Made by a program: the position numbers and the translations under genes
Assembly (NCBI RefSeq): GCF_022869805.1
Contig: NZ_CP094974.1
Coordinates: 248,001-312,000, forward strand
Direction: 5' to 3'
DNA length: 64,000 bases
Source of the DNA: Halosolutus halophilus
GTDB lineage: Archaea; Halobacteriota; Halobacteria; Halobacteriales; Natrialbaceae
Shown: positions 1,908-47,415 of the stretch, in pieces
Layout of the letters: the number at the start of each line of letters is the position of its first letter
How positions within the stretch are numbered: the first letter of the stretch is position 1
Notes under the pieces: generated by a model
Told to the model about the DNA's origin: nothing
Databases searched by the model: none
The model's input: the letters and a program-made list of their open reading frames with translations, nothing else

Positions 1908-1940
1908 CGATAACTAGGTTATACTACTGGGTTATAACTC
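1908..1940 (-). promoter_or_regulatory. thiC promoter with TATA box and overlapping palindrome
   Basis: Read on the minus strand, a perfect palindrome GTTATAAC (1931-1938) sits where a TATA box should lie for transcription starting at the thiC ATG. Between it and the ATG is a second inverted repeat, ATAACTAGGTTAT (1910-1922; arms ATAAC and GTTAT), covering the expected start site. A repressor bound there would block initiation. No TPP riboswitch fits, because there is no leader. Confidence 0.5.
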
Positions 1941-2108
1941 CCGGGGTCGGCCTCCCGTTCGATACCCGCATCGCGCTGGTCCCGGGATCGATCGGACCGC
2001 CGGCGGCGAGGCCTCCTTCTCACGGGTGTACGCACCCGGAACGGACGACGAGCGGGATTCCACCAACTTATGAGCATCGGGTGCAGTCTCTCGAGTAGGT
2101 GCCACCAG

Positions 2109-2804
2109 ATGTCCGACTTACCGGACGATTTCGACTGTACGATCACGAACTGGGAGTACATCTACGGCCTCTGTCGCGACGTCAGTGAGGAGGTTCGGCG
2201 CGACGAGTTCGACCCGGACGTCATCGTCGCGCTCGCTCGCGGCGGCTGGTTCGCGGGGCGGTGTCTCTGTGACTTTCTCGGACTCGACGACCTGACGAGC
2301 CTGAAGATGGAACACTACGTCGGGACCGCCGAGAAGAGCGGCGAGCCGACGGTCCGCTACCCGATGCCGGAAGGTAGCGTCGAGGGCAAGGACGTGCTCA
2401 TCATCGACGACATCGCCGACACCGGGGGCTCGATCGAACGGGCCTACGAGTACGTCGACGACCGGAACGCCGGGGAGGTCCGAACGGCGACGCTGCAATT
2501 GCTCGGGACCAGCGCGTACCAGCCCGACTACGTCGGTGAACAGCTAGAGGACTGGACCTGGATCGTCTACCCCTGGAACTTCATCGAGGACATGATCGAC
2601 CTGATCGCGGGGATCATGGACCAGGCCGACCAGGAGACCTTCACCCAGGACGAGATCCGCCACTACCTCGCCGAGTTCCACGGCATCGAACGCATCGAGA
2701 TGGAGATCGCCCAGCCCAACCGGATCCCGGAGGTCGTGACCGAGATGGAGCGCCGCGGCGTCGTCGAGTCCGACGGGCCGGGCGTGTGGACGCTGGCCGA
2801 GTAG
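2109..2804 (+). CDS. Phosphoribosyltransferase (purine-salvage type)
   Basis: The protein has 231 residues from the ATG at 2109; the open frame extends upstream, but family homology begins at MSDLPDDF. A type I PRTase domain fills the first 150 residues, with the PRPP-binding loop VLIIDDIADTGGS near residue 100, typical of xanthine/guanine or hypoxanthine enzymes. The last 70 residues look like a small winged-helix module (QDEIRHYLAEFHGI ... VVESDGPGVW), so a regulatory or lid role is possible. The protein is cytoplasmic and the gene is monocistronic. Substrate cannot be read from the sequence; purine salvage is the likeliest role. Confidence 0.85.
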   Translation: MSDLPDDFDCTITNWEYIYGLCRDVSEEVRRDEFDPDVIVALARGGWFAGRCLCDFLGLDDLTSLKMEHYVGTAEKSGEPTVRYPMPEGSVEGKDVLIIDDIADTGGSIERAYEYVDDRNAGEVRTATLQLLGTSAYQPDYVGEQLEDWTWIVYPWNFIEDMIDLIAGIMDQADQETFTQDEIRHYLAEFHGIERIEMEIAQPNRIPEVVTEMERRGVVESDGPGVWTLAE

Positions 2805-2826
2805 GCTATCGCCGCCCGGAACGCGC

Positions 2827-4227
2827 TCAGTGAGCGGTCGACGTGTCATCGCGATCGAGCGCTGCTGCCCGCTCGCGAAGCCGGTCGATCCGTTCTTCGG
2901 TCGGTGGATGCGGCTCCGGAACCCAGCGTTCGGCCGTGAATATCGACAGGAGATCGCCGAGCCGTTTCGTGACCCGGTATCCGCCCGCGCTGAGGGGGCG
3001 CCGTCCGGTCACCGGCCGATCGTCGTCCCGGAGCGGCTGGTCGGACAGGTCCTGCTCGAGCCGATCGATCCGCTTCCAGTTCCCGTGGTTTGCCGTCGGA
3101 TCGTCCGTGATCGAGCGTCGCGAGCGCGGCCGGCGGGACGTCAGCCGTCGCCACGGATCGGTCAGGATCACCTCGCTCACGGAGACGGAGTCGCCCGCCC
3201 CGTCGCCGCGTGAACTGCCGGATCGCGGCCGATCGGTCCCGTCATCCGATCGAGCCAGCTGGCGGAGCGGCTGCTCGTCGTACATCGCCCGAATCGACGC
3301 GGGATCGGACCAGTCGACGGGAGACGCCGCATCGTCACGATCGGCGACCGATTCGTCGTTCGTCTCGGCCGTCACCGGAATGCCGTGGGGGAGCAGACAC
3401 AGCGCTCTGAAGCCACGATCCTGCGCCCGGAGATCGTGCACCGGCAGCGAGGCCGCGTGGTCGTCGATCTCCTGGAGGGCCGCGGCCAGGGCTGCCGGAT
3501 TTCCGGTCGCGCGGACGGCCGCCGCGTCCGCGGCGTACTCGCGGTACCGGGACAGGAGGCCGAAGACGACGAAGGCCGGAAACTGGACGACGGCACAGAC
3601 GAGGATCACCGGACCCAGGAGGACGAACCCGTAGAACGGGTGCAACGCGAAGGCGGCCGTCGCGACGCGCAGGAGCGAGTGGCTCGCAACGAAGACCAGC
3701 GACGCGACGAACATCACGAGCGCGTCGCGGTTTTTCAGGTGTGCGAGTTCGTGCGCCAGCGCGGCGTCGAGTTCGTCGCCCTCGAGCGTCGAGAGCAGTC
3801 CGTCCGTGACGACGATCGCCGACCCGCTCGGTCGCACGACAGCGAGGGTGTTCGGCAGCGGCGAGCGGACGAGTTCGATCGTCGGCTCCGGCGCGTCCAT
3901 CGTCGCTGCGAGTCGGCGGACCCGATCGTGCAGTTCCGGCGCGTCCGCCTCCGCGAGCGATTCGGTCTCGATGCTGTCGTCGAGTTTCCGGTAGCTCGCA
4001 ACGCCGACGACGGCGAGCATCGACGCGGTCAGCGCGAGGAGTTCCGTGACCGAGATCGCGTATCCGGTACCGAGCGTCGGATCACCGCCCGTCGAGAACG
4101 CGACCAGCCACGGCAGAAACGCAGTCGCGACCCACACCAGTGCGCGAACGAACAGGAGCGCCGTAACCGAAAGCGACCCCAGCGCGATCAGGATGCGAAG
4201 CCGAAGGGACCGGTCCGGGCGGGACAT
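2827..4227 (-). CDS. M48-family (HtpX-like) membrane zinc protease
   Basis: The protein has 466 residues from the ATG at 4227; a GTG two codons upstream is possible. Two hydrophobic segments lie at about residues 10-45 and 58-78, followed by the zinc motif HELAH at about 160 and a downstream EYAADAAA block supplying the third ligand. These are the hallmarks of HtpX/Ste24-type proteases that degrade damaged membrane proteins. A further hydrophobic pair follows around residues 175-215. The C-terminal 170 residues are polar, rich in S, D and R, and not part of the catalytic core. The gene converges on the PRTase gene with about 20 nt between the two stops. Confidence 0.9.
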   Translation of the reverse strand: MSRPDRSLRLRILIALGSLSVTALLFVRALVWVATAFLPWLVAFSTGGDPTLGTGYAISVTELLALTASMLAVVGVASYRKLDDSIETESLAEADAPELHDRVRRLAATMDAPEPTIELVRSPLPNTLAVVRPSGSAIVVTDGLLSTLEGDELDAALAHELAHLKNRDALVMFVASLVFVASHSLLRVATAAFALHPFYGFVLLGPVILVCAVVQFPAFVVFGLLSRYREYAADAAAVRATGNPAALAAALQEIDDHAASLPVHDLRAQDRGFRALCLLPHGIPVTAETNDESVADRDDAASPVDWSDPASIRAMYDEQPLRQLARSDDGTDRPRSGSSRGDGAGDSVSVSEVILTDPWRRLTSRRPRSRRSITDDPTANHGNWKRIDRLEQDLSDQPLRDDDRPVTGRRPLSAGGYRVTKRLGDLLSIFTAERWVPEPHPPTEERIDRLRERAAALDRDDTSTAH

Positions 4228-6019: not shown

Positions 6020-7135
6020 TCAGTCGGCGATCGCTTCGTTCGCGTCCGCCTCGACGGTGGCGTCCTGGACCCAGAGATCGCCGAACAGTTCGTCCTGTTC
6101 GAGGCGGACTCGACCGCGGTGTGCCAGAAAGAGCAGGGCGAGGTAGGTCATCACGCGGGAACCGCCGACCTCGTCGATCTCGGCGTAGAGGACCTCGTCG
6201 CGTCCCTTCTCGTACTGTCCTTCGAGGACCGTCTCGACGTCCTCGATCACCGTCTCGATGTCCTCCTCGTGGGTCGTGTGCGTGACGTCGTCGCTCGTCG
6301 GTTCGTCGTCGACCCGGAAGTCGTCGTCGGAGTGGTAGTGCAGTTCCTGGACGCCCCGATCGTATCCGCGCGGCGAGTCGCTGGTGTCGTAGCTCCGGGA
6401 GTCTTTCCACCAGCTACCCCGCTCGGCGTCCCGGAGGTCCCGCACCAGTTCGTCCAGCGTCTCGGGTTTGCCGCGGGCGTGTTTCCGCTCGAGTCGGCGT
6501 TCCATCTCCGCCTCGAGACCCTCGACGGGGTCGAACCCGGGTGCCGGGCCGTCGCCGTCCGCGCCGTCCATCGGCCCCTCGTCGGCGAAGGGGGCCTCCC
6601 ACGGCGGGAGTTCGTCGTCCTCGGGTTCGTCCGCCGTGAACAGTTCGTCGCTTTTCATCCGCAAGAGGACGCTCGCGTAGAACAGCGCCCGCCCCGACGT
6701 GCGGAGATCGACGTCGTCTAGCGCCTCGAGGAACTTGTCCGTCACCCGAACGACGTCGATGTCCCACGGGTCGATCTCGCCGTCTTTGGCGAGTTGGACC
6801 AGCAGTTCGACGGGTTCGACTTCCTCCTCGTCCGTCTCGTTCGCCTCGCTATCGGCCTCGCCGCCGCCCGATCCGGATGCTTCGTCGTCGTCGAAATCGA
6901 GGACCGTCTCGCCGCCCTCATCGGGTGATTCGGCCTCGTCGCCCTCGTCGGGCAGTCCACTCTCGCCGCCCGCACCGGACTCGCGCTTCGCGTCGCGATC
7001 GGCCGGTCGCTCCCGGTCCTCGTGGCCGGCGATGTTCAGGGGGATGTCGTCGCCACCGTCGGTACGGGGCTGTCGATCGCGCGACGACTCGGGCGGCCGA
7101 TCGGACTCGGGCGCGGACCGTCCCCCGTCAGTCAT
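6020..7135 (-). CDS. scpA: Segregation and condensation protein A (kleisin ScpA)
   Basis: ScpA is the kleisin subunit that bridges the heads of the Smc dimer. The first 110 residues are a charged, low-complexity extension (E/D/G-rich). The kleisin N-terminal domain starts at VEPVELLVQLAKDGEIDPWD near residue 110. A helical middle follows, and the C-terminal winged helix (VMTYLALLFLAHRGRVRLEQ) binds the Smc cap. The ATG overlaps the smc stop by 8 nt, so the two are translationally coupled. The acidic N-terminal extension is longer than in bacterial ScpA and is characteristic of haloarchaea. Confidence 0.95.
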   Translation of the reverse strand: MTDGGRSAPESDRPPESSRDRQPRTDGGDDIPLNIAGHEDRERPADRDAKRESGAGGESGLPDEGDEAESPDEGGETVLDFDDDEASGSGGGEADSEANETDEEEVEPVELLVQLAKDGEIDPWDIDVVRVTDKFLEALDDVDLRTSGRALFYASVLLRMKSDELFTADEPEDDELPPWEAPFADEGPMDGADGDGPAPGFDPVEGLEAEMERRLERKHARGKPETLDELVRDLRDAERGSWWKDSRSYDTSDSPRGYDRGVQELHYHSDDDFRVDDEPTSDDVTHTTHEEDIETVIEDVETVLEGQYEKGRDEVLYAEIDEVGGSRVMTYLALLFLAHRGRVRLEQDELFGDLWVQDATVEADANEAIAD

Positions 7136-10100
7136 CGGCTGGTACCTCCTCCCCGCTACTCAGATCGATCCCGGTCACCGCACTCACGTTGTCCTGTTGC
7201 ATCGTCACGCCGATCGCCCGCTCGGAGCGATCGAGCATGGCCGAGCGGTGCGAGACGACGACGAACTGCGCCTTCTCGGAGAGTTCCTCGACCATCTGAC
7301 CGATTCGCTCGGCGTTGACGGCGTCGAGGAAGGCGTCGACCTCGTCGAGCGCGTAGAACGGGGCCGGGTTGTGTCGCTGAATCGCGAAGATGAAGGCCAG
7401 CGCCGTCAGCGACTTCTCGCCGCCGGACATCGCGTCGAGTCGCTGAATGGGCTTGTCGCCCGGCTGGGCTTTCATCGTCAGGCCGCCGTCGAAGGGGTCG
7501 TCCTCGTCCTCGAGGTGGAGCGTGCCGGTCCCCTCCGAGAGCTGTTCGAAGATCTCGGTGAAGTGCGCCGAGATGGCCTCGTAGGCGTCCATGAACGTTC
7601 GTTTCTTCTGGGTCTCGTACTGCTCGATCCGATCGCGAATGCCGTCGGCCTCCTCGACCAGCGTGGCCTTCGCGTCCTCGAGTTCCTCGAGGTCGCTTCG
7701 AACCTCGTCGTACTCGTCGATCGCGAGCATGTTGACCGGCTCCATCGCCTCCATGTCCGCCCCCAGGAGGTCGATCATCTCGAGGACGGTGTCGTGATCG
7801 GGAACGTCCTCGGGGTCGTAGTCGCCGACCTCGGACTCGAGCGAGTCGATCTCCCACTCGAGGTTGCTCGCCCGTTCGCGGCTGTCCTCGAGCTTGCTCT
7901 CGACCGCGTTGACCCTGTCCTGCTGCTGGTCTCGCTTCGTTCGCGCGTCGGCGAGTTCCTCCTTGAGCTCGCTTCGCTCGTCTTTCAACTCGGTGAGTTC
8001 CGCCTCGAGTTCTTCGACCGCCTCGTGTTTCTCCGCCAGCGTCTCTCGCTTCTCGCCGATCGTCTCCTCGCACTCCTCGATGCGCTCTTCGTGTTCGGCC
8101 TTGCGGTTCTGTGCGCTCTCGATATCGTCGTGGAGGTCCTCGATGGCGTCCTCGGCGTACTCCTTTTCGAGACCGAGTTCGTTCAGCTTGTTGTCGATCT
8201 CCGCGATTCTCCCCTCGCGTTCGTCGATTTCGGCCTCCAATTCCTCGATCTCCGCGGTCAACTCGGGGATCTTCGAGTCCTCGAGTTCGGCCTCGAACTC
8301 CGCGATGTCGGCCTCGATCGACTCGACCGTGGCCGTCTTCGTTTCGATCTCCTCGCCGATCTCGGTCATCCGCTCGTCGACCGACTCACGCTCGTCTTTC
8401 AGCTCCGCGAGTTCGTCCTCGAGCGTCTCGATCTCCTCGTCGATGGACTCGCGCCTGTCGTCGAGTTTCTCGATTTCGGTCTCGATCGAGCGGACCTCGT
8501 CGGCCGCGTCGGTCTTTCGATCGCGGGCGTCGTCGAGGCGTCCCTCGACGTCCCGGAGTTCCTCGCGCAGCGACTCGCGTTCCTCCTGTAACTCCGTGAT
8601 CTGTTTGGCGACGCGTTCGAGCTGTCCCTCGCCGCCGCCGGTGAAGGAGTAGCGCGACCCCTTCCCCGAGCCGCCGGTCATCGCGCCGCTCTTCTCGACG
8701 AGGTCGCCGTCGAGCGTGACCATCCGGTAGTCGCCCATGTACGATCGGGCGGTCTCGATGTCCTCGACGACCAGCGTGTCGCCGAGCACGTACGAGAAGA
8801 CGCCGGCGTACTCGCTGTCGAAGTCGACGAGGTTGTACGCGAAGTCGACGACGCCCGGATCGCTGGGGGCGTTCGGGAGGCGGCGCTGGCTCATGTCCGA
8901 AAGCGGAAGGAACGTCGCTCGGCCGGCGTTGCGCGACTTGAGGTGCTCGATACACTGCTGGCCGACGACGTCGTCGTCGACGATCACGTTCGCCAGCCGG
9001 CCGCCCGCGGCGGTCTCGCAGGCGACCGCGTACTCGCCGGGGACGTTCCCCAACTGAGCGACCGCGCCGTGGACGCCGCCGATCCCCGCGTTGAGGATCG
9101 TCGTCACCGCGCGACCGAACGAGGAATCGCCGCTCTCGCCGGCGTTGGCCTCGAGTTCCGCGTACTCCTGTTGTTTCGCCTGGATCTCGTCGTCGAGGTC
9201 GTCGACGTCCGACTGGATGCGTCGCTTCTCGGCCTTCAGGTCGTCGACGACGCCGGCGATGTTCTCGCGGTTCCGTCGAGCCTTCTCCAACTCGCGTTCG
9301 AGATCCGATCGTTTGCGCTCGATCTCGGGGAGTTCCTCGCGTCGCTCCTCGATCGTCTCCTCTTTTTCGCTGATCGCGTTCGATCGACGGCGGGCCTCGT
9401 CGAGCAGTCGGTCCTGCTCGCGCTGGAGGTCGTTCTTCTCGGTCTTTGCGTCCTCGAGGTCGTCCTTGCGGTCGGCGAGTTCCGCTTTCAACTCGTCGAA
9501 CTCCGTGTCGACGGCCTCGATCTCGGCCTCGAGTTCGTCGCGTTCGGCCTCGTGCTCCTGGATCTCGGTCTTGATCGAGGCCTTCTCGAGTTTGTGCTCG
9601 CGGATCTCGTCTTCCAGGTCCGCGATCGTCTCCTGTTTGCGGTCGATCTGGACGAACGCCTCGCGGCGCTTCGATTCGGCGTCCTCGATCTGGTCTTCGC
9701 TGGCCTCGATCCGGTCCTCGAGCCGCGAAATCTCGCCTTTGATCTCCTCGATCTCGCTTTTGATCCGCAGCTGTTCGTCCTCGCCCTTGCGCTCGATCTC
9801 GGCATTCAGGTCCTCGAGGTCCTCCTGCAGTCGGACGACCTTCCCCTGGCGTTCGTCGAGTTCGCGCTGGAGGTCTTCGAGTTCGTCCTCGAGGTCGCCG
9901 ACGCGGTCCTCGATTCCCTCGAGTGTCTCGCGTTTCTCCTCGAGTTCGCTGGCCTTCCTGTACCCCTCGTAGGCCTCTTTCTCGCGGCGGAGCCGCCGGT
10001 ATCGCAGCGCCTGCTGGCGTTCGTCCTCCAGCTGGGCGAGTCGATCGCGTTTCTCCTCGATCCGCAACTCGGCCTCGTCGATCCGCTCCTGGACGGTCTC

Positions 10101-10703
10101 GAGTTCCTCGAACGCGTCTTCCTTCTTGGCGTCGAACTCGGCCACGCCCGCGATCTCGTCGATGATCTCCCGGCGGGCGTGGGGCGTCATGTTGATGATC
10201 TCGGTCACGTCGCCCTGCATGACGACGTTGTATCCTTCCGGTGTGACGCCCGCCTGTGCCAGCAGATCCTGGATGTCCGAGAGGTTGACCGAGCGATCGT
10301 TCAGGTAGTAGTAGGAGTAGTAGTTGTCCTCGGTCTCCTTGACGCGACGCCGAATGCGAATCTCGTCGACGTCGCCGACGTCCTCGGTGCCGGCGGCGTT
10401 GACGACCTGCGATCGCTCGAGGGCGCCGTCGGCGTTGTCGAGGATCACTTCCACGGTCGCCTCCCGCGGCCCGGCGGACGCGTTGCCGTCCTCGTGACCG
10501 GGGTTGTAGATGAGGTCGGTCAGTTTCTCGGCGCGGATGCCACGGGTCCGGGCCAATCCGAGTGCGAAGAGGACGGCGTCGATGATGTTCGACTTTCCGG
10601 AGCCGTTCGGTCCGGTGACGACGGTGAAATCCTCGTAGAACGGGATCTTCGTTTTCCGGCCGAAGCTCTTGAAGTTGTCCAGAACGAGCGCCTTGATATA
10701 CAT
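7128..10703 (-). CDS. smc: Chromosome segregation ATPase Smc
   Basis: The 1191-residue SMC protein folds DNA into loops together with ScpA. The Walker A motif GPNGSGKSN lies near residue 32. Two long coiled coils flank the hinge (about residues 515-640, around IGGVHGAVAQLGNVPGEYAV). The C-terminal head carries the signature SGGEKSLTALAF and Walker B ALDEVDAFLD. The coiled coils are nearly pure E/D/R/L/K. The gene is second in a three-gene operon, downstream of a short coiled-coil gene (about 70 nt gap) and upstream of scpA (8 nt overlap). The length is standard for the family. Confidence 0.98.
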   Translation of the reverse strand: MYIKALVLDNFKSFGRKTKIPFYEDFTVVTGPNGSGKSNIIDAVLFALGLARTRGIRAEKLTDLIYNPGHEDGNASAGPREATVEVILDNADGALERSQVVNAAGTEDVGDVDEIRIRRRVKETEDNYYSYYYLNDRSVNLSDIQDLLAQAGVTPEGYNVVMQGDVTEIINMTPHARREIIDEIAGVAEFDAKKEDAFEELETVQERIDEAELRIEEKRDRLAQLEDERQQALRYRRLRREKEAYEGYRKASELEEKRETLEGIEDRVGDLEDELEDLQRELDERQGKVVRLQEDLEDLNAEIERKGEDEQLRIKSEIEEIKGEISRLEDRIEASEDQIEDAESKRREAFVQIDRKQETIADLEDEIREHKLEKASIKTEIQEHEAERDELEAEIEAVDTEFDELKAELADRKDDLEDAKTEKNDLQREQDRLLDEARRRSNAISEKEETIEERREELPEIERKRSDLERELEKARRNRENIAGVVDDLKAEKRRIQSDVDDLDDEIQAKQQEYAELEANAGESGDSSFGRAVTTILNAGIGGVHGAVAQLGNVPGEYAVACETAAGGRLANVIVDDDVVGQQCIEHLKSRNAGRATFLPLSDMSQRRLPNAPSDPGVVDFAYNLVDFDSEYAGVFSYVLGDTLVVEDIETARSYMGDYRMVTLDGDLVEKSGAMTGGSGKGSRYSFTGGGEGQLERVAKQITELQEERESLREELRDVEGRLDDARDRKTDAADEVRSIETEIEKLDDRRESIDEEIETLEDELAELKDERESVDERMTEIGEEIETKTATVESIEADIAEFEAELEDSKIPELTAEIEELEAEIDEREGRIAEIDNKLNELGLEKEYAEDAIEDLHDDIESAQNRKAEHEERIEECEETIGEKRETLAEKHEAVEELEAELTELKDERSELKEELADARTKRDQQQDRVNAVESKLEDSRERASNLEWEIDSLESEVGDYDPEDVPDHDTVLEMIDLLGADMEAMEPVNMLAIDEYDEVRSDLEELEDAKATLVEEADGIRDRIEQYETQKKRTFMDAYEAISAHFTEIFEQLSEGTGTLHLEDEDDPFDGGLTMKAQPGDKPIQRLDAMSGGEKSLTALAFIFAIQRHNPAPFYALDEVDAFLDAVNAERIGQMVEELSEKAQFVVVSHRSAMLDRSERAIGVTMQQDNVSAVTGIDLSSGEEVPADD

Positions 10704-10772
10704 ACTCTTCTCGAAACCTCCGTCGGCCTGCTCGAGATGGTCGCGGGCCGATTCCGCGGTGCAGTCGTGCGG

Positions 10773-11078
10773 TTATGCGACTATAATGTCGTCGCTACCT
10801 GAGTCTTCCGCTTCGTCGCCGGCGGGTTCGTCGGCGTCGGCCGCTGCCTCGGCGACGTCGTCCGGATTCGCTTCCGTCGTTTCGCCCGCTGGGTGGTCCG
10901 CTGCGTCCGTTTCCGTGCGCCGTCGCTTCGGAACGCGCGTGGGGGAGTCGGCGTCGAGTTCGGCCTCGAGGACGCGGATTCGCTCTTTCGCTTCGATGAG
11001 TTCGTCCGTCAGACCCTCTACAGTCGACTCGAGTTCCGCCACCGTCGATTCGAGTTGCTCGACGCGGTTTTTCGGCAT
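10773..11078 (-). CDS. Short coiled-coil protein preceding smc
   Basis: The product has 101 residues from the ATG at 11078 (MPKNRVEQLEST...). Residues 5-45 form a heptad-patterned coiled coil (EQLESTVAELESTVEGLTDE...). A short basic patch (PKRRR) follows, then an acidic, unstructured tail ending SDDIIVA. It is first in the smc-scpA operon. I recognise it as a haloarchaeal family commonly placed here but know no function; an accessory of the condensin complex is a guess from context. The start is supported by a TTTATG box (11103-11108), about 27 nt upstream, consistent with a leaderless message. Confidence 0.75.
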   Translation of the reverse strand: MPKNRVEQLESTVAELESTVEGLTDELIEAKERIRVLEAELDADSPTRVPKRRRTETDAADHPAGETTEANPDDVAEAAADADEPAGDEAEDSGSDDIIVA

Positions 11079-11098
11079 ACGTCCTATGGATCTGTCTG

Positions 11099-11110
11099 GC
11101 CACATAAACG
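11099..11110 (-). promoter_or_regulatory. Promoter of the smc-scpA operon
   Basis: On the minus strand TTTATGTG (11101-11108) is centred about 27 nt before the ATG at 11078, the normal spacing for an archaeal TATA box of a leaderless transcript. A second AT-rich block, AATAAATAG, lies 20 nt further upstream. Confidence 0.4.
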
Positions 11111-11324
11111 TACGTCAGACACAACTATTTATTCTGGCAACTTTCACGATTATTGAACAGTCAGTCGGCGATCGACGGATCGAGATGCAACGCACTCCCG
11201 CCTTCTCGTTCGGACGAAATCGAGAGGTAGCTGATCACGGTTAACATGTACACATTCGCCTATTTGGGTTGGTAGTGACTCTCACGTGTATGGCGAACCA
11301 GCCACGAGAGGGAGTACACCGACC

Positions 11325-12653
11325 ATGACAACGGGACCAACCGCAGGGGCGGAATCGGGTGGAATCGACAGACGAACGCTACTGAAAACCGTCGGCGGTT
11401 CGGCGCTCGCGATCGCGCTGGCCGGCTGTACGGAACTACTCGAAGGCGAGCAGGAGTCGCTGGAAAACGCCGACGTTCCGGACGAGCCGATCGAGTCGGG
11501 CCTGCAGACGTTCACGGAGGGCGCACCGGCGGTGCTCGGCGTTCAGGCCCGCTACGGTGCCGAAACTGCGGTCCGTCGGATCAACGAGAACGGCGGGATC
11601 GCCGGCCGCAACATGAACCTCGACGTCGTCGAGGAGGGCGGGGCGCATCTCACGAACTACCAGCAGTTCGTCGACGAGGGGAAAGACGTCACCTTCGGCC
11701 CGATCTCGAGCAGCGGCCACGCGGAGATGGTCCCGGAGATCGAGGCGCAGGAGGTCATCAACGTCTCGACCGACGGGACGGTGACGACGCTCTACGAGGA
11801 GGACTTCCCGGACGTAACCTACTCGTTCCGGTTCCAGAACCACGACGTGATGGAGGCGCTCGCGGCGGTCATGCAGGCGGTCGAAGTCCTCGGGGCGGAC
11901 TCGATCGATACCTACGCCGGGATCAATCCCGGCTACGCGTTCGGCCAGGACGAGATGGACCTGTTCTCGAAGGGGATCGAACAGGTCGCCGGAGCCGAGG
12001 AATTACACAGCGGCTTCCCGGACCTGGGAACCGACGACATGTCGACACACATCACCGAGATCAACAGCGAGCAACCCGACATCGTCTTCTCGAGTTGCTG
12101 GGGCGGCGACGCGACGCTGTTGCTCGAGCAGGGCCACGCTAACGGCATGTTCGACAGCATCGAGCTGCTGGTCGGACCGGTCCTCTACGGCTCGGCCAAC
12201 GACATGAGCGAAGACCTCGTCGACGGGCCGATCTACTCGGGGTCGCGTAACTTCTACTGGGGCGAGCCGTCGACCGATCGGTGGAGTCCGGCCGCCGATC
12301 TGGTCGACGAGGTTCAGAGCGAGTACGGCGTCGTGCCGACGGCTCACTTCATGAGCGGCTACGGTGCGGTGACCGCGTGGGCGACGGCCGCCGAGAAGGC
12401 CGTCCAACTCCTCGGTCGCTGGCCCGAACAGGACGAACTCGCAACCGTCCTCGAGAATCACGGGTTCTTCACGCCGGCCGGCTACCACACGATGGGGGCG
12501 GACCATCAGGGGTACTCCAACGCCCACTTCGGCGAGTTGACCTGGTCGGACGAGTACGACGCGGCGGCGCTCGCGGACGTGAACGTCTTCTCCGCCGAAT
12601 CGGTATCGCCGCCGCCTGGTGAGGTTTCCGCCGACTGGATCGGGAACTGGTGA
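11325..12653 (+). CDS. Liv-type ABC solute-binding lipoprotein
   Basis: This is the periplasmic-binding-type (Peripla_BP_6) receptor of the branched-chain amino acid/amide ABC importer encoded downstream. The 442-residue product starts at ATG 11325, preceded by a GGGAG Shine-Dalgarno-like stretch about 11 nt upstream. The signal peptide has a twin arginine (DRRTLLK) and the lipobox ALAGC, so it is probably Tat-exported and lipid-anchored. The mature domain begins PIESGLQTFTEGAPAVLGVQ and shows the two-lobed LivJ pattern (NENGGIAGRNMNLDVVEEGG). The ligand is not predictable: leucine-type amino acids, urea or amides are all possible. It is first of five genes. Confidence 0.92.
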   Translation: MTTGPTAGAESGGIDRRTLLKTVGGSALAIALAGCTELLEGEQESLENADVPDEPIESGLQTFTEGAPAVLGVQARYGAETAVRRINENGGIAGRNMNLDVVEEGGAHLTNYQQFVDEGKDVTFGPISSSGHAEMVPEIEAQEVINVSTDGTVTTLYEEDFPDVTYSFRFQNHDVMEALAAVMQAVEVLGADSIDTYAGINPGYAFGQDEMDLFSKGIEQVAGAEELHSGFPDLGTDDMSTHITEINSEQPDIVFSSCWGGDATLLLEQGHANGMFDSIELLVGPVLYGSANDMSEDLVDGPIYSGSRNFYWGEPSTDRWSPAADLVDEVQSEYGVVPTAHFMSGYGAVTAWATAAEKAVQLLGRWPEQDELATVLENHGFFTPAGYHTMGADHQGYSNAHFGELTWSDEYDAAALADVNVFSAESVSPPPGEVSADWIGNW

Positions 12654-39925: not shown

Positions 39926-40507
39926 GTGGTGGCCCAGCAACAGCGCAACGAACCCGACGGCCCCCTCTCGAAAGGCGAAGTTTTCGAAGTTCTTCGAAAC
40001 CAGCGGCGGCGCTACGTGCTCCAGTTCCTGAAACAGGACGGCCGTCCCGTCGAACTCGGTGATCTCGCCCAGCAGATCGCCGCCTGGGAGTACGAGACCA
40101 CCCTCGACGGCGTCACCCCCGAGCAGCGAAAGCGCGTCTACACGACCCTCCAGCAGACGCACCTGCCGAAGATGGACACGGCCGGCATCCTCGAGTTCGA
40201 CTCCGATCGGGGCGTCATCGAGCCGACCGATCGGACGCGGGACATCAGCGTCTACCTCGAAATCGTGCCGGGAAGCGAGTTCGCGTGGCGGGAACTGTAC
40301 CTCTCGCTGGGCGCGATCAGTTGCGCGCTCGTCGCCGCGCTGTGGCTCAGGATCTACCCCATGACGCTGCTATCGGATCTGACGTGGGCGGCGATAATCG
40401 CCGTCACGTTCACCGTCACCGCGATCGTCCACATCTACCACGAGCGGAACATGCGCGTCGGACAGGGCGAGCAGCCGCCGGAACTGAGCTACGGCGCCGA
40501 CGACTGA
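39926..40507 (+). CDS. DUF7344 winged-helix protein with two membrane helices
   Basis: A 193-residue protein starting with GTG, set by a strong Shine-Dalgarno site. The N-terminal winged helix (residues 15-100) begins LSKGEVFEVLRNQRRRYVLQ, with the wing around QQTHLPKMDTAGILEFDSD. Two transmembrane helices follow at about 120-140 and 145-170 (LSLGAISCALVAALWLRIYP, then LTWAAIIAVTFTVTAIVHI). It may be a membrane-tethered transcription factor. Function unknown. Confidence 0.85.
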   Translation: MVAQQQRNEPDGPLSKGEVFEVLRNQRRRYVLQFLKQDGRPVELGDLAQQIAAWEYETTLDGVTPEQRKRVYTTLQQTHLPKMDTAGILEFDSDRGVIEPTDRTRDISVYLEIVPGSEFAWRELYLSLGAISCALVAALWLRIYPMTLLSDLTWAAIIAVTFTVTAIVHIYHERNMRVGQGEQPPELSYGADD

Positions 40508-40585
40508 CTTCGACGGGTGTGTGGGTGTCTCACGTTTGCTCGTCGGTATCGTCAACTTTTACTCCGCTACCGACCGACCGACGAC

Positions 40586-41152
40586 ATGGATCAGTTGAAA
40601 CGGTCGCTTCTCGAGGCGCCGATCATCGAGAAAAACGGGTACCACTACTTCGTTCATCCGATCAGCGACGGCGTCCCAAAACTCGATCCGGGACTGCTGC
40701 GCGAAATCGTCATCCGGATCATTCGCAAAGCCGAACTCGAGAACGTCGATCGGATCGTCACCCCGGCCGCGATGGGCATCCACATCTCGACCGCGGTTTC
40801 GCTGATGACCGACATTCCGCTGACGGTGATCCGCAAACGACAGTACGGACTCGAAGACGAGGTCGCCATCTCCCAGAAAACGGGCTATTCCGAGAACGAG
40901 ATGTACATCAACGACGTCCGCGAAGGCGAGCGCGTGCTCGTCCTGGACGACGTGCTCTCGACCGGCGGCACGCTCGCGTCGGTCCTCGACGCGCTCAACG
41001 AGATCGGTGCCGAGGTCATCGACACCGTCGCGGTCATCAAGAAGGTCGGCGGCGAGAACAAGGTCGACGACGCCGGGTATCAGGTCAAGACGCTGATCAA
41101 CGTCGACGTCGTCGACGGCGAGGTCGTCATCGTCGACGAAGAAGGCGATTAA
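40586..41152 (+). CDS. hpt: Hypoxanthine/guanine phosphoribosyltransferase
   Basis: A 188-residue purine-salvage enzyme of the archaeal Hpt/Apt-like group. It starts [20 protein letters not shown] at ATG 40586; the open frame upstream is not conserved. The PRPP loop [13 protein letters not shown] lies near residue 115. The enzyme joins hypoxanthine or guanine to PRPP in the cytoplasm. A T-rich stretch (CTTTTACT) about 28 nt before the ATG could act as TATA region. The other PRTase in the window (2109) is a different subfamily. Confidence 0.9.
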
Positions 41153-41669
41153 CGGTCGGTTGGCTTCCCCTACGACGCCCGGCCTGGAATCACGGCGCAG
41201 AATTTGGGGTCGGCTCCCGACCCGTCCTGGGTTCGAGAGACGTCCGTCCCACTCGTCGCCGGGCGGATTCGCCCTCTTGGCGGCTGTCTCGTGGGCCGAT
41301 CGTTAGGTCTTCCGTACGGATCCATCATCGGTTCCGTCCGATCGGAATTTGAACGCCCCGACGTCCGGTGATCGCCTGTCGTCTCGGTTGGAGTCGGAAC
41401 CGGTGGTCCGACGCGCTCGGGGAGAGGACCTGAACACGTACAGTCCTCTTCGAAGGGGTAATGCCAACCTCTCGAACTGGTATTTTGCTTTTCCGCTTCA
41501 CACAGTTTCCTATTTCTTGAAGCATTTCGTGATTTTCACTCGAGATTGTATCACGGTTACCCGGATATCAATACGCTTCTTCCCTTTCCCAATGGTATAT
41601 TAAACGGGGTAAGAATTGCTTGGAGGGGAAGCAATACATATTTATATTTGTGATTCACATTTCGTATCC
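41153..41669. other. 517-base intergenic stretch before the dipeptide operon
   Basis: The first 280 bases are GC-rich with no supported gene. On the minus strand a T-arm-like GCGTTCAAATTCCG occurs near 41345-41358, but no tRNA can be folded around it. From about 41460 the stretch becomes AT-rich. It contains a TATA-like GGTATATTAAAC (41594-41605), an inverted repeat, and the operon TATA box. Confidence 0.6.
41615..41649 (+). promoter_or_regulatory. Promoter and operator-like palindrome of the dipeptide operon
   Basis: A perfect inverted repeat ATTGCTT (41615-41621) and AAGCAAT (41629-41635) with a 7-base G-rich spacer stands directly upstream of the TATA box TTTATAT (41641-41647). The box is centred 26 nt before the ATG at 41670, so the mRNA is leaderless. 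The palindrome is well placed for an activator, or a repressor competing with TFB. Confidence 0.5.
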
Positions 41670-43337
41670 ATGGTGCGGGATCACACGCAGACGGAACGGA
41701 CTGTTAACCGACGAAAACTCCTCCAAGGCGTTGGAGGCGCCGGTGCGATAGCACTCGCAGGCTGTCTCGGCGGTGAGAGCAATGATAACGACAACGGAGA
41801 CAAGGAACGAGCACTACAGTTGCTCGAGGAGGGCTTCGAGGAAGAAGGCTTCGAACCGCCGTACGAAGCCGACCTCGTCACGAACGAGAACCCCGAGCGC
41901 GTCAAGTGGTCACAGATCGTCCAGCAGGTGCTCGAAGACACGGAGTACTTCGACCTCGAACTGCAGCAGTACGAGTGGACGACCTACCAGGAGGTCGTTC
42001 TCAGCGAGGAGTCAGCCGAGGAGAACCACCTCGCAGCGCTGGGGTGGAGCGCCGGATACGACCCGGACGCCTACGTGAACTTCCTACTGCACTCGGACTT
42101 CCACACGCCGGCGTGCTGTAACACGAACCACTACGCGAACGATAAACTCGACTCCCTCATCGAAGAGGGGAAGACCGAGACCGATCCCGAGGCTCGAGTC
42201 GAGGTGTACAAGGAACTCCAGAAGGTCGTCGCCAAGCAATCGCCGCTTAGCTTCGTCCGGTTCGGTGAGGAACTCATCGCCCACCGCAAGGAGGCACTCG
42301 GCAACTGGACGGTCTCTCCGTTCGACAGCACGCGCTTCTCGACGATTTACAACGTGGCGGCGGAGACCGCCATCACGTTCGACGACCCGGACGGCGACGG
42401 CGAACTCAAGGCCTCCGTCGGTGCCGACGCCGCCAACTTCGACCCCGTCCAGCAGAACGACACCACGTCGTCTCAGGTAACGGGCCTCATCTTCGAGGGT
42501 CTCGTCGACGTCGACTACTCGGGTCAGCCTCAGCCGCTTCTCGCAGAAAGCTGGGAGCAGCAAGACGACACTACGTACACCTTCTCCCTCCGTGAGGGCG
42601 TCCAGTTCCACAACGGCGAGGAGCTGACCGCCGAACACGTCAAAGCCTCGATGGAGCGGTACAAGGGCACGCCGCGCGAGGCCGACGTCTACGACTGGCT
42701 CGGCGAGGACGGCGAAATCAGAGTCGTCGACGATTACGAACTCGAAATCGAACTCGCCGAACCCTACGCGCCGTTCCTGCTCAACGTCGGCAACGCGCTC
42801 ATCGTCCCCTTCGAAGCCATCGAAGAGGAGTACGGCGGGGAGGGTGCCGTCGACCTGCAGGAGGAAGCGATCGGGACCGGCCCGTACATGCACGAGGAGT
42901 ACCAGCCCGACGAACTCTACCGGATTTCGCGCAACGACGACTACTGGGGGCAGGAACTGATGGACAGCGCACCCGAACCGGACACGATCCAGTTCCGCAT
43001 CATCGTCGAATCCTCGGTCCGACAGAGTGCCCTCGAGGCCGGCGACGTCCACGTCGTGAGTCCGCCCCCGGCGTCGTTCCAGGAGCTGGACGATAACGAC
43101 GAAATCGTGGCAAAGAGTACGACGACTGGCGGCTTCGACATGCTCATTCCCCCGGTCCAGCACAAGCCGTTCACTAACGCCAAGGTGCGCCGCGCAGTGT
43201 CCCTCCTGATCCCGCGCCAACAGATCATCGACACCGTCTACAACGGAATCGGCGTCCCAGCGTACGGCCCGATTTCGCCCGTTGCCGAGCGATTCGCGCT
43301 CGACAACGAGGAACTCCTCAAAATCCTCGAAGAGTAG
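41670..43337 (+). CDS. Circularly permuted dipeptide-type ABC solute-binding lipoprotein
   Basis: A 555-residue SBP_bac_5 (DppA/OppA) protein with the two parts in reversed order. A Tat/lipoprotein signal (NRRKLLQ; lipobox ALAGC, Cys 32) and an N/D/G linker come first. Residues 45-235 are what is normally the C-terminal half: NPERVKWSQIVQQVL, GWSAGYDPDAYVNFL, KTETDPEARVEVYKELQKVV and the usual family end AAETAITF. After DDPDGDGE, at residue 246, the normal N-terminus begins: LKASVGADAANFDP, GLIFEGLVDVDYSGQPQPLL, then the family signature YTFSLREGVQFHNGEELTAE. The chain ends after VPAYGPISPVAERFALDNEE, the normal middle. The total is close to an ordinary family member plus linker, with no frameshift. 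It heads a dppBCDF operon, so it is presumably the receptor. Confidence 0.9.
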   Translation: MVRDHTQTERTVNRRKLLQGVGGAGAIALAGCLGGESNDNDNGDKERALQLLEEGFEEEGFEPPYEADLVTNENPERVKWSQIVQQVLEDTEYFDLELQQYEWTTYQEVVLSEESAEENHLAALGWSAGYDPDAYVNFLLHSDFHTPACCNTNHYANDKLDSLIEEGKTETDPEARVEVYKELQKVVAKQSPLSFVRFGEELIAHRKEALGNWTVSPFDSTRFSTIYNVAAETAITFDDPDGDGELKASVGADAANFDPVQQNDTTSSQVTGLIFEGLVDVDYSGQPQPLLAESWEQQDDTTYTFSLREGVQFHNGEELTAEHVKASMERYKGTPREADVYDWLGEDGEIRVVDDYELEIELAEPYAPFLLNVGNALIVPFEAIEEEYGGEGAVDLQEEAIGTGPYMHEEYQPDELYRISRNDDYWGQELMDSAPEPDTIQFRIIVESSVRQSALEAGDVHVVSPPPASFQELDDNDEIVAKSTTTGGFDMLIPPVQHKPFTNAKVRRAVSLLIPRQQIIDTVYNGIGVPAYGPISPVAERFALDNEELLKILEE

Positions 43338-43376: not shown

Positions 43377-44324
43377 ATGAGCCTCTCACGGTACATTGTA
43401 AAACGCATCCTCGTCTCTATCCCCGTCTTGGTCGGGGTAACGATGGTTTCGTTTGGATTGATACAGATGATCCCGGGTGATCCGATCGAATTCATACTCC
43501 AGTTTACGAACGTTTCACCCGAGGCGGAAAAACAGCTGTACGACAAGTACAACCTCAACGAGCCAATCTGGAAACAGTATCTGCTGTGGCTTCAGGACGT
43601 GATCGTCCTGGACTTCGGCGAATCGATCATCTCGGGCCGCGACGTCGCCTACGAGATCAGTTCGCGACTGGACCACACGATCGCGCTCGGTCTCTTCTCG
43701 TGGCTGATCGGTCTGGGCGTCGGCATTCCGACCGGGATCATCGCCGCAGTCAAACGCGGAACCGTCACCGACGAGGCCAGTCGCATCGCCGCCCTGCTGG
43801 GAATCGCGACGCCGAACTTCTGGCTCGGTCTGATGTTGATCCTCGTTCTCAGCGTCAACCTCGGGATTTTCCGGGTGATTCCGCCAGACGCCCCGCTGTT
43901 GAGCGCAGCGAAGCTAAAATTCCTCATCCTGCCCTCCGTGACCATCGGGACTGCATCCGCGTCGCTGATCATGCGTCTCGTCCGGTCGTCGATGCTCCAG
44001 GAACTCAACAAGGAGTACGTTCGGATGGCACGCGCGAAGGGGCTGAGCGAACGAACGGTCATCTTCAAGCACGTCCTTCGGAACTCGCTGATCGCGGTCG
44101 TCACCGTCGCGGCGATCCAGATCGCGTTCATCATCAACGGGGCGGTCGTCATCGAACAGGTCTTCTCGTGGCCTGGCCTCGGACGACTTCTCGTCAGGGC
44201 TATCAGTCAGCGTGACTTCCCGATCATTCAGGCGGGCGTGTTGATGACCGGCGTCGCGATCGTCGTCGCCAACCTGTTGGCCGATATCGTCTACTCGTGG
44301 CTCGACCCACGGATCAGATACTAA
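43377..44324 (+). CDS. dppB: Dipeptide/oligopeptide ABC permease DppB
   Basis: A 315-residue permease with six transmembrane segments. It begins SLSRYIVKRILVSIPVLVGV, the standard DppB N-terminus, with the EAA-type coupling loop EYVRMARAKGLSERTVIFKH at about residue 218. It forms the channel with DppC. The gene is 39 nt after the permuted receptor gene and 2 nt before dppC, in one operon. The transported compound could be a peptide, nickel chelate or glycoside; sequence alone does not say. Confidence 0.95.
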   Translation: MSLSRYIVKRILVSIPVLVGVTMVSFGLIQMIPGDPIEFILQFTNVSPEAEKQLYDKYNLNEPIWKQYLLWLQDVIVLDFGESIISGRDVAYEISSRLDHTIALGLFSWLIGLGVGIPTGIIAAVKRGTVTDEASRIAALLGIATPNFWLGLMLILVLSVNLGIFRVIPPDAPLLSAAKLKFLILPSVTIGTASASLIMRLVRSSMLQELNKEYVRMARAKGLSERTVIFKHVLRNSLIAVVTVAAIQIAFIINGAVVIEQVFSWPGLGRLLVRAISQRDFPIIQAGVLMTGVAIVVANLLADIVYSWLDPRIRY

Positions 44325-44326
44325 GA

Positions 44327-45364
44327 ATGAAGCAGAAACAACGAGATACGACGTCGAAGCGAGGTCGAATCCGAATCACTGGATTCGACGCCGAACGAGT
44401 GCGTAACCGAGACTCCCTCTCGGGCTGGACCGAGGCCGAAGCCGAAGGCGGTACCAGCAGAATGGAGTACGCCTGGAGACGGTTCAAGAGCAACCGGCTC
44501 GCGATGCTCAGCGTCGGCGTCATGGCACTTATGACTCTCGTGGCCGTTTTCGCCCGGCCGATAACGGTCGACGTCGCCGGCATGTCGCTTCCGCTGCAGC
44601 CGTTCTCGATTACGCCGTACGATCCCGGCCGGATGTTCGTCGGGGCGCCGAACGCTCCCCCGAGCGCCGAACACCTGATGGGAACCGACTGGTCGGGACG
44701 AGACCTGTTCTCGCGCGTGCTCGTCGGGACCCGGTACAGCCTCACGATCGGGCTGATCGCGACCGTCCTTGCCCTGTTCATCGGGATCCCGCTCGGCTCA
44801 ATCGCCGGCTACTTCGGCGGCTGGGTCGACGAGACGATCATGCGTCTGGTCGACGTTCTCTACGCGTTCCCGTTTCTCGTCCTCGCCATCGCGATCATCG
44901 CAGTGCTCGGACAGGGGTTCTGGAATCTGATCCTGGCGTTGACGATCACCGGCTGGATCAGCTACGCCCGTCTCATCCGCGGTGAGGTACTGAGCGTGAA
45001 AGAAAACGAGTACGTACTCGCGGCGAAAGCGCTCGGCGCGACCGATCGCTCGATCATCTTCCGGCACGTCGTCCCGAACGCGATGGCACCGGTCATCGTC
45101 CAGGCGACGCTGTCGATCGGGACCGTCGTCCTCTCTGCGGCCGCGCTCGGCTTCCTCTCGCTCGGTCTCACGCCGGGGACCCCCGAGTGGGGGACGATGC
45201 TCTCGAGCACTCGCGACACCATCGCACAGGGGTACTGGTGGGTGTCGGTCTTCCCCGGCCTGGCCATCGTCGTGTTCGTGCTCGCTATCAACCTGATGGG
45301 CGACGGAATCAACGACGCGCTCGACCCACAGGGAGACACCGCAACGAAACAGAGGATGCAATAG
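44327..45364 (+). CDS. dppC: Dipeptide/oligopeptide ABC permease DppC
   Basis: A 345-residue permease from ATG 44327; the longer open frame overlaps dppB and is rejected. A polar N-terminal extension of about 55 residues precedes the first helix (RLAMLSVGVMALMTLVAVFA). An insert (SITPYDPGRMFVGAPNAPPS) and the GTDWSGRDLFSRVLVGTR block are typical of DppC. The coupling loop is ENEYVLAAKALGATDRSIIF. It is directly followed by dppD with no gap. Confidence 0.95.
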   Translation: MKQKQRDTTSKRGRIRITGFDAERVRNRDSLSGWTEAEAEGGTSRMEYAWRRFKSNRLAMLSVGVMALMTLVAVFARPITVDVAGMSLPLQPFSITPYDPGRMFVGAPNAPPSAEHLMGTDWSGRDLFSRVLVGTRYSLTIGLIATVLALFIGIPLGSIAGYFGGWVDETIMRLVDVLYAFPFLVLAIAIIAVLGQGFWNLILALTITGWISYARLIRGEVLSVKENEYVLAAKALGATDRSIIFRHVVPNAMAPVIVQATLSIGTVVLSAAALGFLSLGLTPGTPEWGTMLSSTRDTIAQGYWWVSVFPGLAIVVFVLAINLMGDGINDALDPQGDTATKQRMQ

Positions 45365-46414
45365 ATGGCACTACTCGAAGTCAACGATCTAGTTACGCAG
45401 TTCTACACTGAGGACGGAACCGTTCGCGCGGTCGACGGCGTGAGCTATCAGATCGACCGCGGTGAAAAGTTCGGCATCGTCGGCGAGAGCGGTGCCGGCA
45501 AGAGCGTGACGAGCCTGTCGGTCATGGGACTCATCGAGAGCCCCGGCGAGATCGTCGGCGGGGAAATCCTGTTCAAGGGTGAGAACCTCCTCGAGAAAAG
45601 CCCCGAAGAGATGCGCCGCATCCGGGGGAACGAGATCGCCATGGTGTTCCAGGACGCCGAGACGGCGCTCAACCCCGTCTACACGGTCGGCGAGCAGATC
45701 GCCGAGGGGATCCGCACGCACAAGGACGTCTCGGACCAGGAAGCCAAAGAGCAGGCGATCGAGATGCTCGCCGAGGTCGGCATCCCCGACCCCGCGGAGC
45801 GATACAGCGACTACCCCCACCAGTTCTCCGGCGGGATGCAACAGCGTGCGGTCATCGCGATCGCGCTCTCGTGCGATCCCGACCTGCTCATCTGTGACGA
45901 ACCCACGACCGCACTCGACGTCACGATCGAAGCGCAGATCCTCGAGTTGCTCGACGAACTGGCGTCGGACTTCGACACGGCGATCCAGCTCATCACGCAC
46001 GACCTCGGCGTCGTCGCCGAGATCTGCAACCGCGTGATGGTGATGTACGCCGGCAAGGCGGTCGAGAAAGCACCCGTCGAGGACCTCTACTACGAGCCCA
46101 AACACCCCTACTCGGTCGGACTGATGGGATCGATCCCTCGAATCGGTGACAGGCGCGACCGTCTCGAGACGATTCCGGGGACGATGCCCGATCTCGTCGA
46201 GGTGCCGCCGGGCTGTAGTTTCCACCCGCGGTGCCCGTACGCCGAGGAGGGCTGTAGCCGAAAAGAGCCGCAACTCGTCGACACCGAGACCGGAAATTCG
46301 TCGAACCCAGCCGACGACGAGGAACACGCCGCGTCGTGTCTGGCGTACACGGGCGACCTCCAGGGTGAACTGTCCTACCAGGTAGAAGTCATGACGGACG
46401 GAGGGGACTCATGA
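45365..46414 (+). CDS. dppD: Dipeptide ABC ATPase DppD
   Basis: A 349-residue ATPase: Walker A GESGAGKSV near residue 39, signature FSGGMQQRAVIA near 155, Walker B LLICDEPTTALD near 175. The oligopeptide-type C-terminal extension contains GCSFHPRCPYAEEGC, a cysteine block seen in this ATPase subfamily and thought to hold an iron-sulfur cluster. The start follows the dppC stop immediately, and the stop overlaps the dppF start by 4 nt. Confidence 0.95.
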   Translation: MALLEVNDLVTQFYTEDGTVRAVDGVSYQIDRGEKFGIVGESGAGKSVTSLSVMGLIESPGEIVGGEILFKGENLLEKSPEEMRRIRGNEIAMVFQDAETALNPVYTVGEQIAEGIRTHKDVSDQEAKEQAIEMLAEVGIPDPAERYSDYPHQFSGGMQQRAVIAIALSCDPDLLICDEPTTALDVTIEAQILELLDELASDFDTAIQLITHDLGVVAEICNRVMVMYAGKAVEKAPVEDLYYEPKHPYSVGLMGSIPRIGDRRDRLETIPGTMPDLVEVPPGCSFHPRCPYAEEGCSRKEPQLVDTETGNSSNPADDEEHAASCLAYTGDLQGELSYQVEVMTDGGDS

Positions 46415-47415
46415 GTAGCCAACCGCTCGTTCGGACGGACGGACTGACGAAGTACTACAGCAACGCCGACGGCTTTCTCGATCGAGTGCTCGGCAACCGG
46501 TCGTGGGTTCGCGCCCTCGACGGCGTCGACCTCGAGGTTCGCGAAGGCGAAACCCTCGGCCTGGTCGGCGAATCCGGCTGTGGGAAGAGTACGCTCGGTC
46601 GCACGCTCCTCCAGCTGGAAGCGCCCACGGAGGGCGACGTCTACTTCAAGGGCGAGAACATCACCAACCTGTCGGGTTCGAACCTCCGGGAAAAGCGTCG
46701 GGAGATGCAGTACATCTTCCAGAATCCCTTCGCCAGTCTGAACCCCCGATTGACCGTCAACGACATCGTCGGCGAGGCACTCGACGTCCACGGGATCGCC
46801 GACGGTGAAGAGCGGGACGCTCGCATCGCGAAGATTCTCGATACGGTCGGGTTGAAGCCGAGTCACGCCAACCGTTACCCACACGAGTTCTCCGGCGGCC
46901 AGCGACAGCGGATCGGCATCGCCCGCGCGCTCGCGGTCGACCCCGACTTCGTCGTCTGTGACGAACCCGTCTCCGCACTCGACGTCTCCGTGCAGGCACA
47001 GATCCTCAACCTGCTCGAGGACCTCCAGGACGAGTTCGGCCTCTCGTACCTGTTCATCGCCCACGACCTCTCGGTCGTCGAACACATTGCCGATCGCATC
47101 GCCGTGATGTACCTCGGCGAGATCGTCGAAGTCGGGACGGCCGAGGAAATCTTCACGCCGCCGTATCACCCCTACACGCACGCACTGCTGTCTGCGATCC
47201 CGGAACCCGATCCGCTCTGGCAGGGCGATCGCGTCATCCTCGAGGGGTCGGTTCCGTCGCCGCTCGATCCGCCGAGCGGGTGCAAGTTCCACACGCGCTG
47301 TCCCATCGCACAGGAAGACTGCAGCGAGTGGGAGGCGCACCCGGACCTCGAGTCCGTCAGTGGAACGCACGAAATCGCGTGCCCGTACCACGAGATGATC
47401 GAAACGGACGTCTGA
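46411..47415 (+). CDS. dppF: Dipeptide ABC ATPase DppF
   Basis: The second, 334-residue ATPase of the importer. Walker A is GESGCGKST near residue 54, the signature [15 protein letters not shown] near 157 and Walker [12 protein letters not shown]. The C-terminal extension carries [15 protein letters not shown] like its partner. It is the last gene of the operon. Confidence 0.95.

Follow-up and report, generated by a model that had tools for sequence, protein, structure and literature searches.

A circularly permuted cluster C solute-binding lipoprotein encoded in a haloarchaeal importer operon, and repeated changes of chain order among its relatives

Positions 41670 to 43337 of the window (the whole stretch of DNA that was analysed, 64,000 nucleotides) contain, on the plus strand, an open frame that begins with ATG and encodes 555 amino acids followed by a stop, in agreement with the intact frame described in an earlier reading of the same DNA made from its letters alone (the sequence-only reading). 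The sole Pfam match of the encoded protein, hereafter the window receptor, is to SBP_bac_5 (E 1.9e-71) and falls in two stretches. Directly behind the receptor gene lie genes for two permeases and two oligo_HPY ATPases, and the dppBCDF set that had been read there is thereby confirmed. The features of the locus are as follows:

41640–41649, plus strand: TATA-box-like element atttatattt, ~25 bp 5' of the ATG, spotted by eye
41670–43337, plus strand: circularly permuted family-5 solute-binding lipoprotein gene (frame, Pfam, swapped-order alignments, AlphaFold2 model, rotation test)
41670–41762, plus strand: predicted signal peptide of the Tat type (NRRKLLQ...), extending to the lipobox ALAG/C (sequence; layout shared with nearly all permuted relatives)
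41763–41765, plus strand: lipobox Cys32, predicted lipid anchor (sequence; invariant alignment column C32)
41766–41798, plus strand: acidic/Gly linker from the anchor to the permuted domain (sequence; model pLDDT <50)
41799–42380, plus strand: residues 44-237, the C-terminal part of the family moved to the front, starting at the helix after the ordinary PISP segment (alignments)
42381–42401, plus strand: new joint DDPDGDG, old C-terminus to old N-terminus (alignments)
42402–43334, plus strand: residues 245-555, the N-terminal and middle part of the family moved to the end, terminating in the helix that precedes the ordinary-order break (Pfam, alignments, model)
43377–44324, plus strand: DppB/OppB-type permease
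44327–45364, plus strand: DppC/OppC-type permease; its frame opens at 44297, the Met at 44327 being the likelier start
45365–46414, plus strand: DppD/OppD-type ATPase with oligo_HPY C-terminus
46411–47415, plus strand: DppF/OppF-type ATPase with oligo_HPY C-terminus

The TATA-like element is a candidate archaeal promoter element that would presumably fit a leaderless haloarchaeal transcript. Upstream of the importer, on the same strand, are located a gene for a DUF7344 protein (39926-40507) and, directly upstream, a hypoxanthine/adenine phosphoribosyltransferase-like gene (40517-41152); no sign of a link between the importer and these two genes was seen. The window receptor carries a twin-arginine signal and lipobox (NRRKLLQGVGGAGAIALAGC, with Cys32), in which RR14-15 is followed by a hydrophobic stretch and ALAGC32, and both RR14-15 and ALAGC32 are invariant across group A, the group of permuted receptors to which it belongs (see below). 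From these motifs the protein is predicted to be a Tat-exported lipoprotein, which makes the lipoprotein signal noted in the sequence-only reading a Tat/lipobox signal. Tat carries folded proteins. Comparison of the gene with its 85% identical orthologue L014 gives a dN/dS of 0.20 overall, with similar values for both parts, and the host genome is assembled as one 5.06 Mb contig.

It had been proposed that sequence blocks typical of the family C-terminus precede those of its N-terminus in this protein, and this was borne out, as the C-terminal part (residues 44-237) precedes the N-terminal part (residues 245-555). For example, phmmer pairs residues 249-538 of the window receptor with positions 49-332 of the solved chain 5u4o and residues 58-214 with positions 356-507 (i-Evalues 1.1e-32 and 1.8e-8), and YliB and E. 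coli DppA likewise returned two alignments in swapped order. Furthermore, the mature window receptor was rotated in 4-residue steps, each version being aligned to L069, its closest ordinary-order haloarchaeal relative. The local alignment score, 776 for the protein as read, reached about 1258-1262 after rotation, with a single optimum at residue ~242, and the re-ordered receptor is ~49% identical to L069. A full match to ordinary receptors thus needs rotation at ~242 and was not obtained as a single collinear alignment; the window receptor is a member of SBP_bac_5 / cluster C with non-collinear halves, i.e., a permuted variant.

The swapped order and the fold of the window receptor are both computational results. 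AlphaFold2, supplied with the mature window receptor and 40 permuted relatives, returned a confident model (pLDDT 90.2, pTM 0.87), the corresponding values for the ordinary L069 being 90.0 and 0.87, and the secondary-structure elements of the former model are arranged in an order that is a rotation of that seen for L069, model residues 1-204 displaying the order of the ordinary C-terminal part. A sequential aligner superposed the permuted model on ordinary receptors over one block only, i.e., residues 205-524 against chain positions ~1-345 (5u4o: Z 24.3, 292 aligned, 2.3 Å), while the L069 model aligns over its full length (1xoc: Z 40.3, 481 aligned, 2.2 Å). Whole-model TM-scores of the permuted model were ~0.4, as expected because the order is swapped, and the matches listed in the structure searches were all cluster C receptors. 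The model thus predicts a two-lobed cluster C fold in which the halves are rotated.

The sequence-only reading had further assumed that versions of the same helix occur at both chain ends, and had argued from this for a tandem duplication. Neither point held. The ERALQLLEEGF segment at the start, within the start helix KERALQLLEEGF, has its ordinary-order counterpart in DPEKAATLLEEGF (helix 348-362 of the model), and the last helix of the chain has its counterpart in the SPEFNQRMGDEY helix (333-344), which immediately precedes DPEKAATLLEEGF; the clearest case is L066, whose chain end SPLAGSFTSEEFNQRMGDEY is almost identical to L069. The two helices are therefore consecutive neighbours of the ordinary fold and no duplicates, which leaves the duplication argument unsupported. 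Because they adjoin in the ordinary protein, the break is the loop between them, and it is here that the models of the window receptor and L069 place the new termini. This does not clearly amount to a break near a domain boundary, as had been suggested, and in terms of the DppA structure the new ends presumably lie inside the second lobe.

Relatives collinear with the window receptor over their full length, and hence permuted, were found at 85% and at 41-43% identity, and one such relative is carried by Natribaculum breve (Natrialbaceae), for which the chromosome is complete. Profiles A1-A4, derived from the relatives of the window receptor and from three further permuted sets, were each searched against ~200-290 genomes, and every frame was sorted by whether its N or its C part comes first, which yielded four groups. 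Group A, including the window receptor, comprises ~26 distinct permuted proteins from family f1 and two genomes of f4; group B is represented by 21 permuted proteins with a long insert within the N part, group C by 17 and group D by 26. Among the genomes searched, permuted receptors of groups A-D occur in haloarchaea only. The search of haloarchaeal genomes suggested by the sequence-only reading thus uncovered a larger point that this reading had missed, namely that permuted receptors are conserved in more than one genus and have arisen several times. The break point lies before the helix in group A, after the helix in group B, and after the helix and the following hairpin in groups C and D; in group B the joints retain the old C-terminus and the old N-terminal lead-in DLxEGGTL almost complete.

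As judged by Pfam and order sorting, four of the seven SBP_bac_5 genes of the host genome are permuted (the window receptor, L004, L006 and L009). Elsewhere in this genome, outside the window, the permuted group D receptors L111 and L129 are located ~1 kb apart (G000:C1:1169605-1171344 and 1172318-1174117), and a third group D receptor, L009, is found apart from these at 1668961-1670715. A Chloroflexi match (L044), first read as a non-archaeal permuted relative, proved to be of ordinary order, and a plasmid search returned five bacterial matches, each spanning only ~residues 222-555 of the window receptor. The group C receptor L106 (G052, locus 1456-3210) is permuted and possesses a Tat signal without a lipobox cysteine, so the protein is possibly released or otherwise anchored. 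Since this permuted receptor lacks the cysteine, tethering cannot be the whole reason for permutation.

In all group A and B loci with enough flank, one receptor gene, be it permuted or ordinary, is followed by the same B-C-D-F importer genes. The NCBIfam DppA model, for which the cut-off is 1005, scores the window receptor at 109.9 bits, and the receptor is not a DppA in the strict dipeptide-binding sense. The position equivalent to the amine-binding Asp408 of E. coli DppA is aligned to a gap by phmmer, and because this equivalent is missing the ligand of the window receptor may not be a dipeptide. Neither of the two other genomes of the genus (G001, G002) returned a match to the window receptor at E 1e-60, and its nearest relatives (85-88%) belong to another genus; in view of its absence from both of these genomes the operon is probably accessory, or else transferred.

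The number of origins was assessed with unrooted trees of re-ordered receptors plus ordinary relatives, in which changes were counted without direction, and with a tree of the two permeases (PermB+PermC), which is independent of receptor re-ordering. Ordinary receptors were found to be basal in group A (L021) and in group B, and intermingled with permuted ones. Holding the permuted receptors of A and B together was rejected by the receptor tree (loss of 540 log units, p-AU 0.0004) and by the permease tree (462 units, p 3e-65), as was holding those of group B together alone (95 units, p 7e-6; permease tree, p 2e-10). For the permuted receptors of group A alone one origin was not rejected (p 0.067; permease tree, p 0.20), and this group is consistent with a single origin. 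With the wider set, one clade of all permuted receptors was rejected (683 units, p 3e-63), as was A+C+D together, and C+D formed one group with a support of 100. Because the trees reject these joint clades, there are at least three independent permutations in haloarchaea (A, B, and C+D), so that mapping the permuted order on a tree, as had been recommended, points to several origins.

Group B includes a close pair of opposite order, L086 (permuted, G095) and L096 (ordinary, nested among permuted group B receptors, G111:C3:261116-263119). All four trees (combined, permease, N-only and C-only) pair the two as sisters (support 100/99, 100/99, 100/100 and 100/94, respectively), they reside in the same operon, and each part is 72-73% identical between them. 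Their signal peptides are almost alike (MSQDTK.S..VLNRRRLLQGAGAAGV..), and in the DNA the blocks on the outside keep their order, whereas the two on the inside have traded places. The joint of L096, DIDFPIEV, has a Phe before Pro, which is common in permuted group B; of the remaining ordinary receptors listed for group B, none has a Phe at the joint except L158 (PPFDV, with Phe after Pro). L096 furthermore has a short helix-strand loop. When two ordinary receptors were added, a clade of permuted group B with L096 was not rejected (p 0.41), and one without L096 was (8e-6). The simplest reading, in which L096 represents a reversal known from one genome so far, is that group B underwent probably one gain followed by this one reversal, multiple gains being the alternative. 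A more general proposition, for and against which we see about equal weight, is that permutation is recurrent and reversible, i.e., that the receptor was rotated in place with signal peptide and operon unchanged and rotated back at least once (L096), chain order being nearly neutral or under switching selection.

The gene at 41670-43337 is thus very probably that of a functional, naturally permuted cluster C (SBP_bac_5) receptor for the adjoining DppBCDF-type importer. Tat would export the receptor chain, with Cys32 as its predicted lipid anchor; this chain would run from the helix after PISP to the family C-terminus, and via the DDPDGDG joint through the family N-terminus to the helix before the break. 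The resulting two-lobed receptor would capture its solute between the lobes and pass it to the permeases, while the membrane tether would be attached to a different part of the fold than in an ordinary receptor. In haloarchaea the leading gene of such operons would have been rewired in situ on at least three occasions (A; B; C+D), the breaks differing between them, with a probable reversion in B. For the window receptor itself, we infer anchoring, solute binding and transport.

The literature describes two textbook routes to circular permutation, duplication followed by trimming, and fission followed by fusion (PMC3320104). The former, in which the receptor gene would have been duplicated in tandem and in frame and then trimmed on both sides, is the classical model (PMC3320104); it is compatible with the reading of a functional permuted receptor, and we consider it an evenly balanced proposition. 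The near-complete old C-terminus and DLxEGGTL at the group B joints are what a tandem fusion would leave, yet neither a fused N-C-N or C-N-C gene nor a tandem receptor pair was found in the operons examined, the helix once thought to be duplicated represents two different helices, and the signal peptide and flanks of L086/L096 stay put, for which a block move is an equally good explanation. Frames of up to 1,244 residues, considered as fused duplicates, proved to be upstream read-through in GC-rich DNA, none of them holding two complete copies of the parts. The second route, in which a two-chain receptor was later joined in the other order, is improbable. Split receptor frames do occur in L151 and L173, but two halves each exported on its own were not encountered. 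The permuted group A gene of L151 (G189, ~6560-6700) is divided into two frames by an assembly fault, with the adapter-like sequence CTGTCTCTTATACAC and N, and L173 (G040, 10100-11851), an ordinary receptor gene adjoining a permuted one, is continuous except for a single in-frame TAA, which makes it a pseudogene or the product of a sequencing error. Overall, no duplicated, half-trimmed, fused double or genuine two-chain receptor was encountered among the frames and operons examined.

The remaining explanations bear on the permuted order as such. A single ancient permutation shared by all groups and followed by several independent reversals draws on the trees being unrooted, with undirected changes, and on L096, which makes reversal plausible. 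It is nevertheless quite unlikely, given that the solved bacterial relatives listed are all ordinary, that ordinary receptors are basal in A (L021) and B, that the break points differ, A being cut ahead of the helix and B, C and D behind it, and that one clade of all permuted receptors is rejected. Still less credible is a chimera with halves from different paralogues: the N-only and C-only trees differ slightly, e.g., in the placement of L067 and L001, but each half recovers the A/B split, which argues against it, as well as the L086/L096 pair (100/100 and 100/94), and the permease tree agrees. Finally, an assembly artefact in which an ordinary receptor gene and its tandem copy were mis-joined, as the sequence-only reading had warned, is rejected as next to inconceivable, because, although L151 reveals that the gene set contains artefacts, the same order and matching joints recur in the ~26 distinct proteins of group A, which stem from numerous assemblies, some of them complete chromosomes (e.g., that of Natribaculum breve), with intact frames, the low dN/dS, and an operon without a second receptor copy.

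Compared to the cluster C receptors DppA, OppA, NikA and GsiB/YliB, the window receptor is homologous throughout, with the same predicted fold and the same operon partners, but its sequence halves are swapped, and its chain ends and tether are located elsewhere in the fold. Searches of the open literature on permuted solute-, substrate- or oligopeptide-binding proteins and haloarchaea, where absence is no proof, returned only TpMglB-2 and engineered sensors. The statement in the sequence-only reading that it knew of no described permuted receptor of this class agrees with these searches as regards cluster C and archaea, with the qualification that a cluster B case is known. TpMglB-2 (Tp0684) of Treponema pallidum is a naturally permuted, membrane-tethered receptor of an ABC importer for which a new subclass, 'Cluster Bc', was proposed, with tethering as a possible reason (PMC4990184). 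It is, however, a cluster B sugar receptor, i.e., of another structural class, with its break inside the N-lobe (PMC4990184), whereas the window receptor belongs to cluster C, is archaeal, and is accompanied by repeated origins and by close orthologues of ordinary order within the same operon type; no homology to MglB or cluster B was found for it, its Pfam match and its sequence matches to solved chains all being family-5. Among DNA methyltransferases, circular permutations within one family are documented together with duplicated intermediates (cited in PMC3320104); those proteins are enzymes, in contrast to the haloarchaeal receptors, for which no intermediate was seen. The close natural pair of opposite order, L086/L096, was found here and is no previously described system.

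Natural circular permutations have usually come to notice as isolated events of old date. An importer receptor with such a permutation was already known from cluster B, and it is the repetition and the probable reversal that are unusual here. Within a single receptor family there are no fewer than three independent permutations, a probable reversal, and a closely related pair of opposite order (L086/L096), for all of which the same function is expected. The effect of chain order on folding, Tat export, lid movement and permease docking can now be tested, as can the importance of the position of the lipid anchor and the DNA route of permutation. The finding also serves as a warning for annotation, as the family profile covers permuted receptors piecewise and more than half of the receptors of the host genome are affected.
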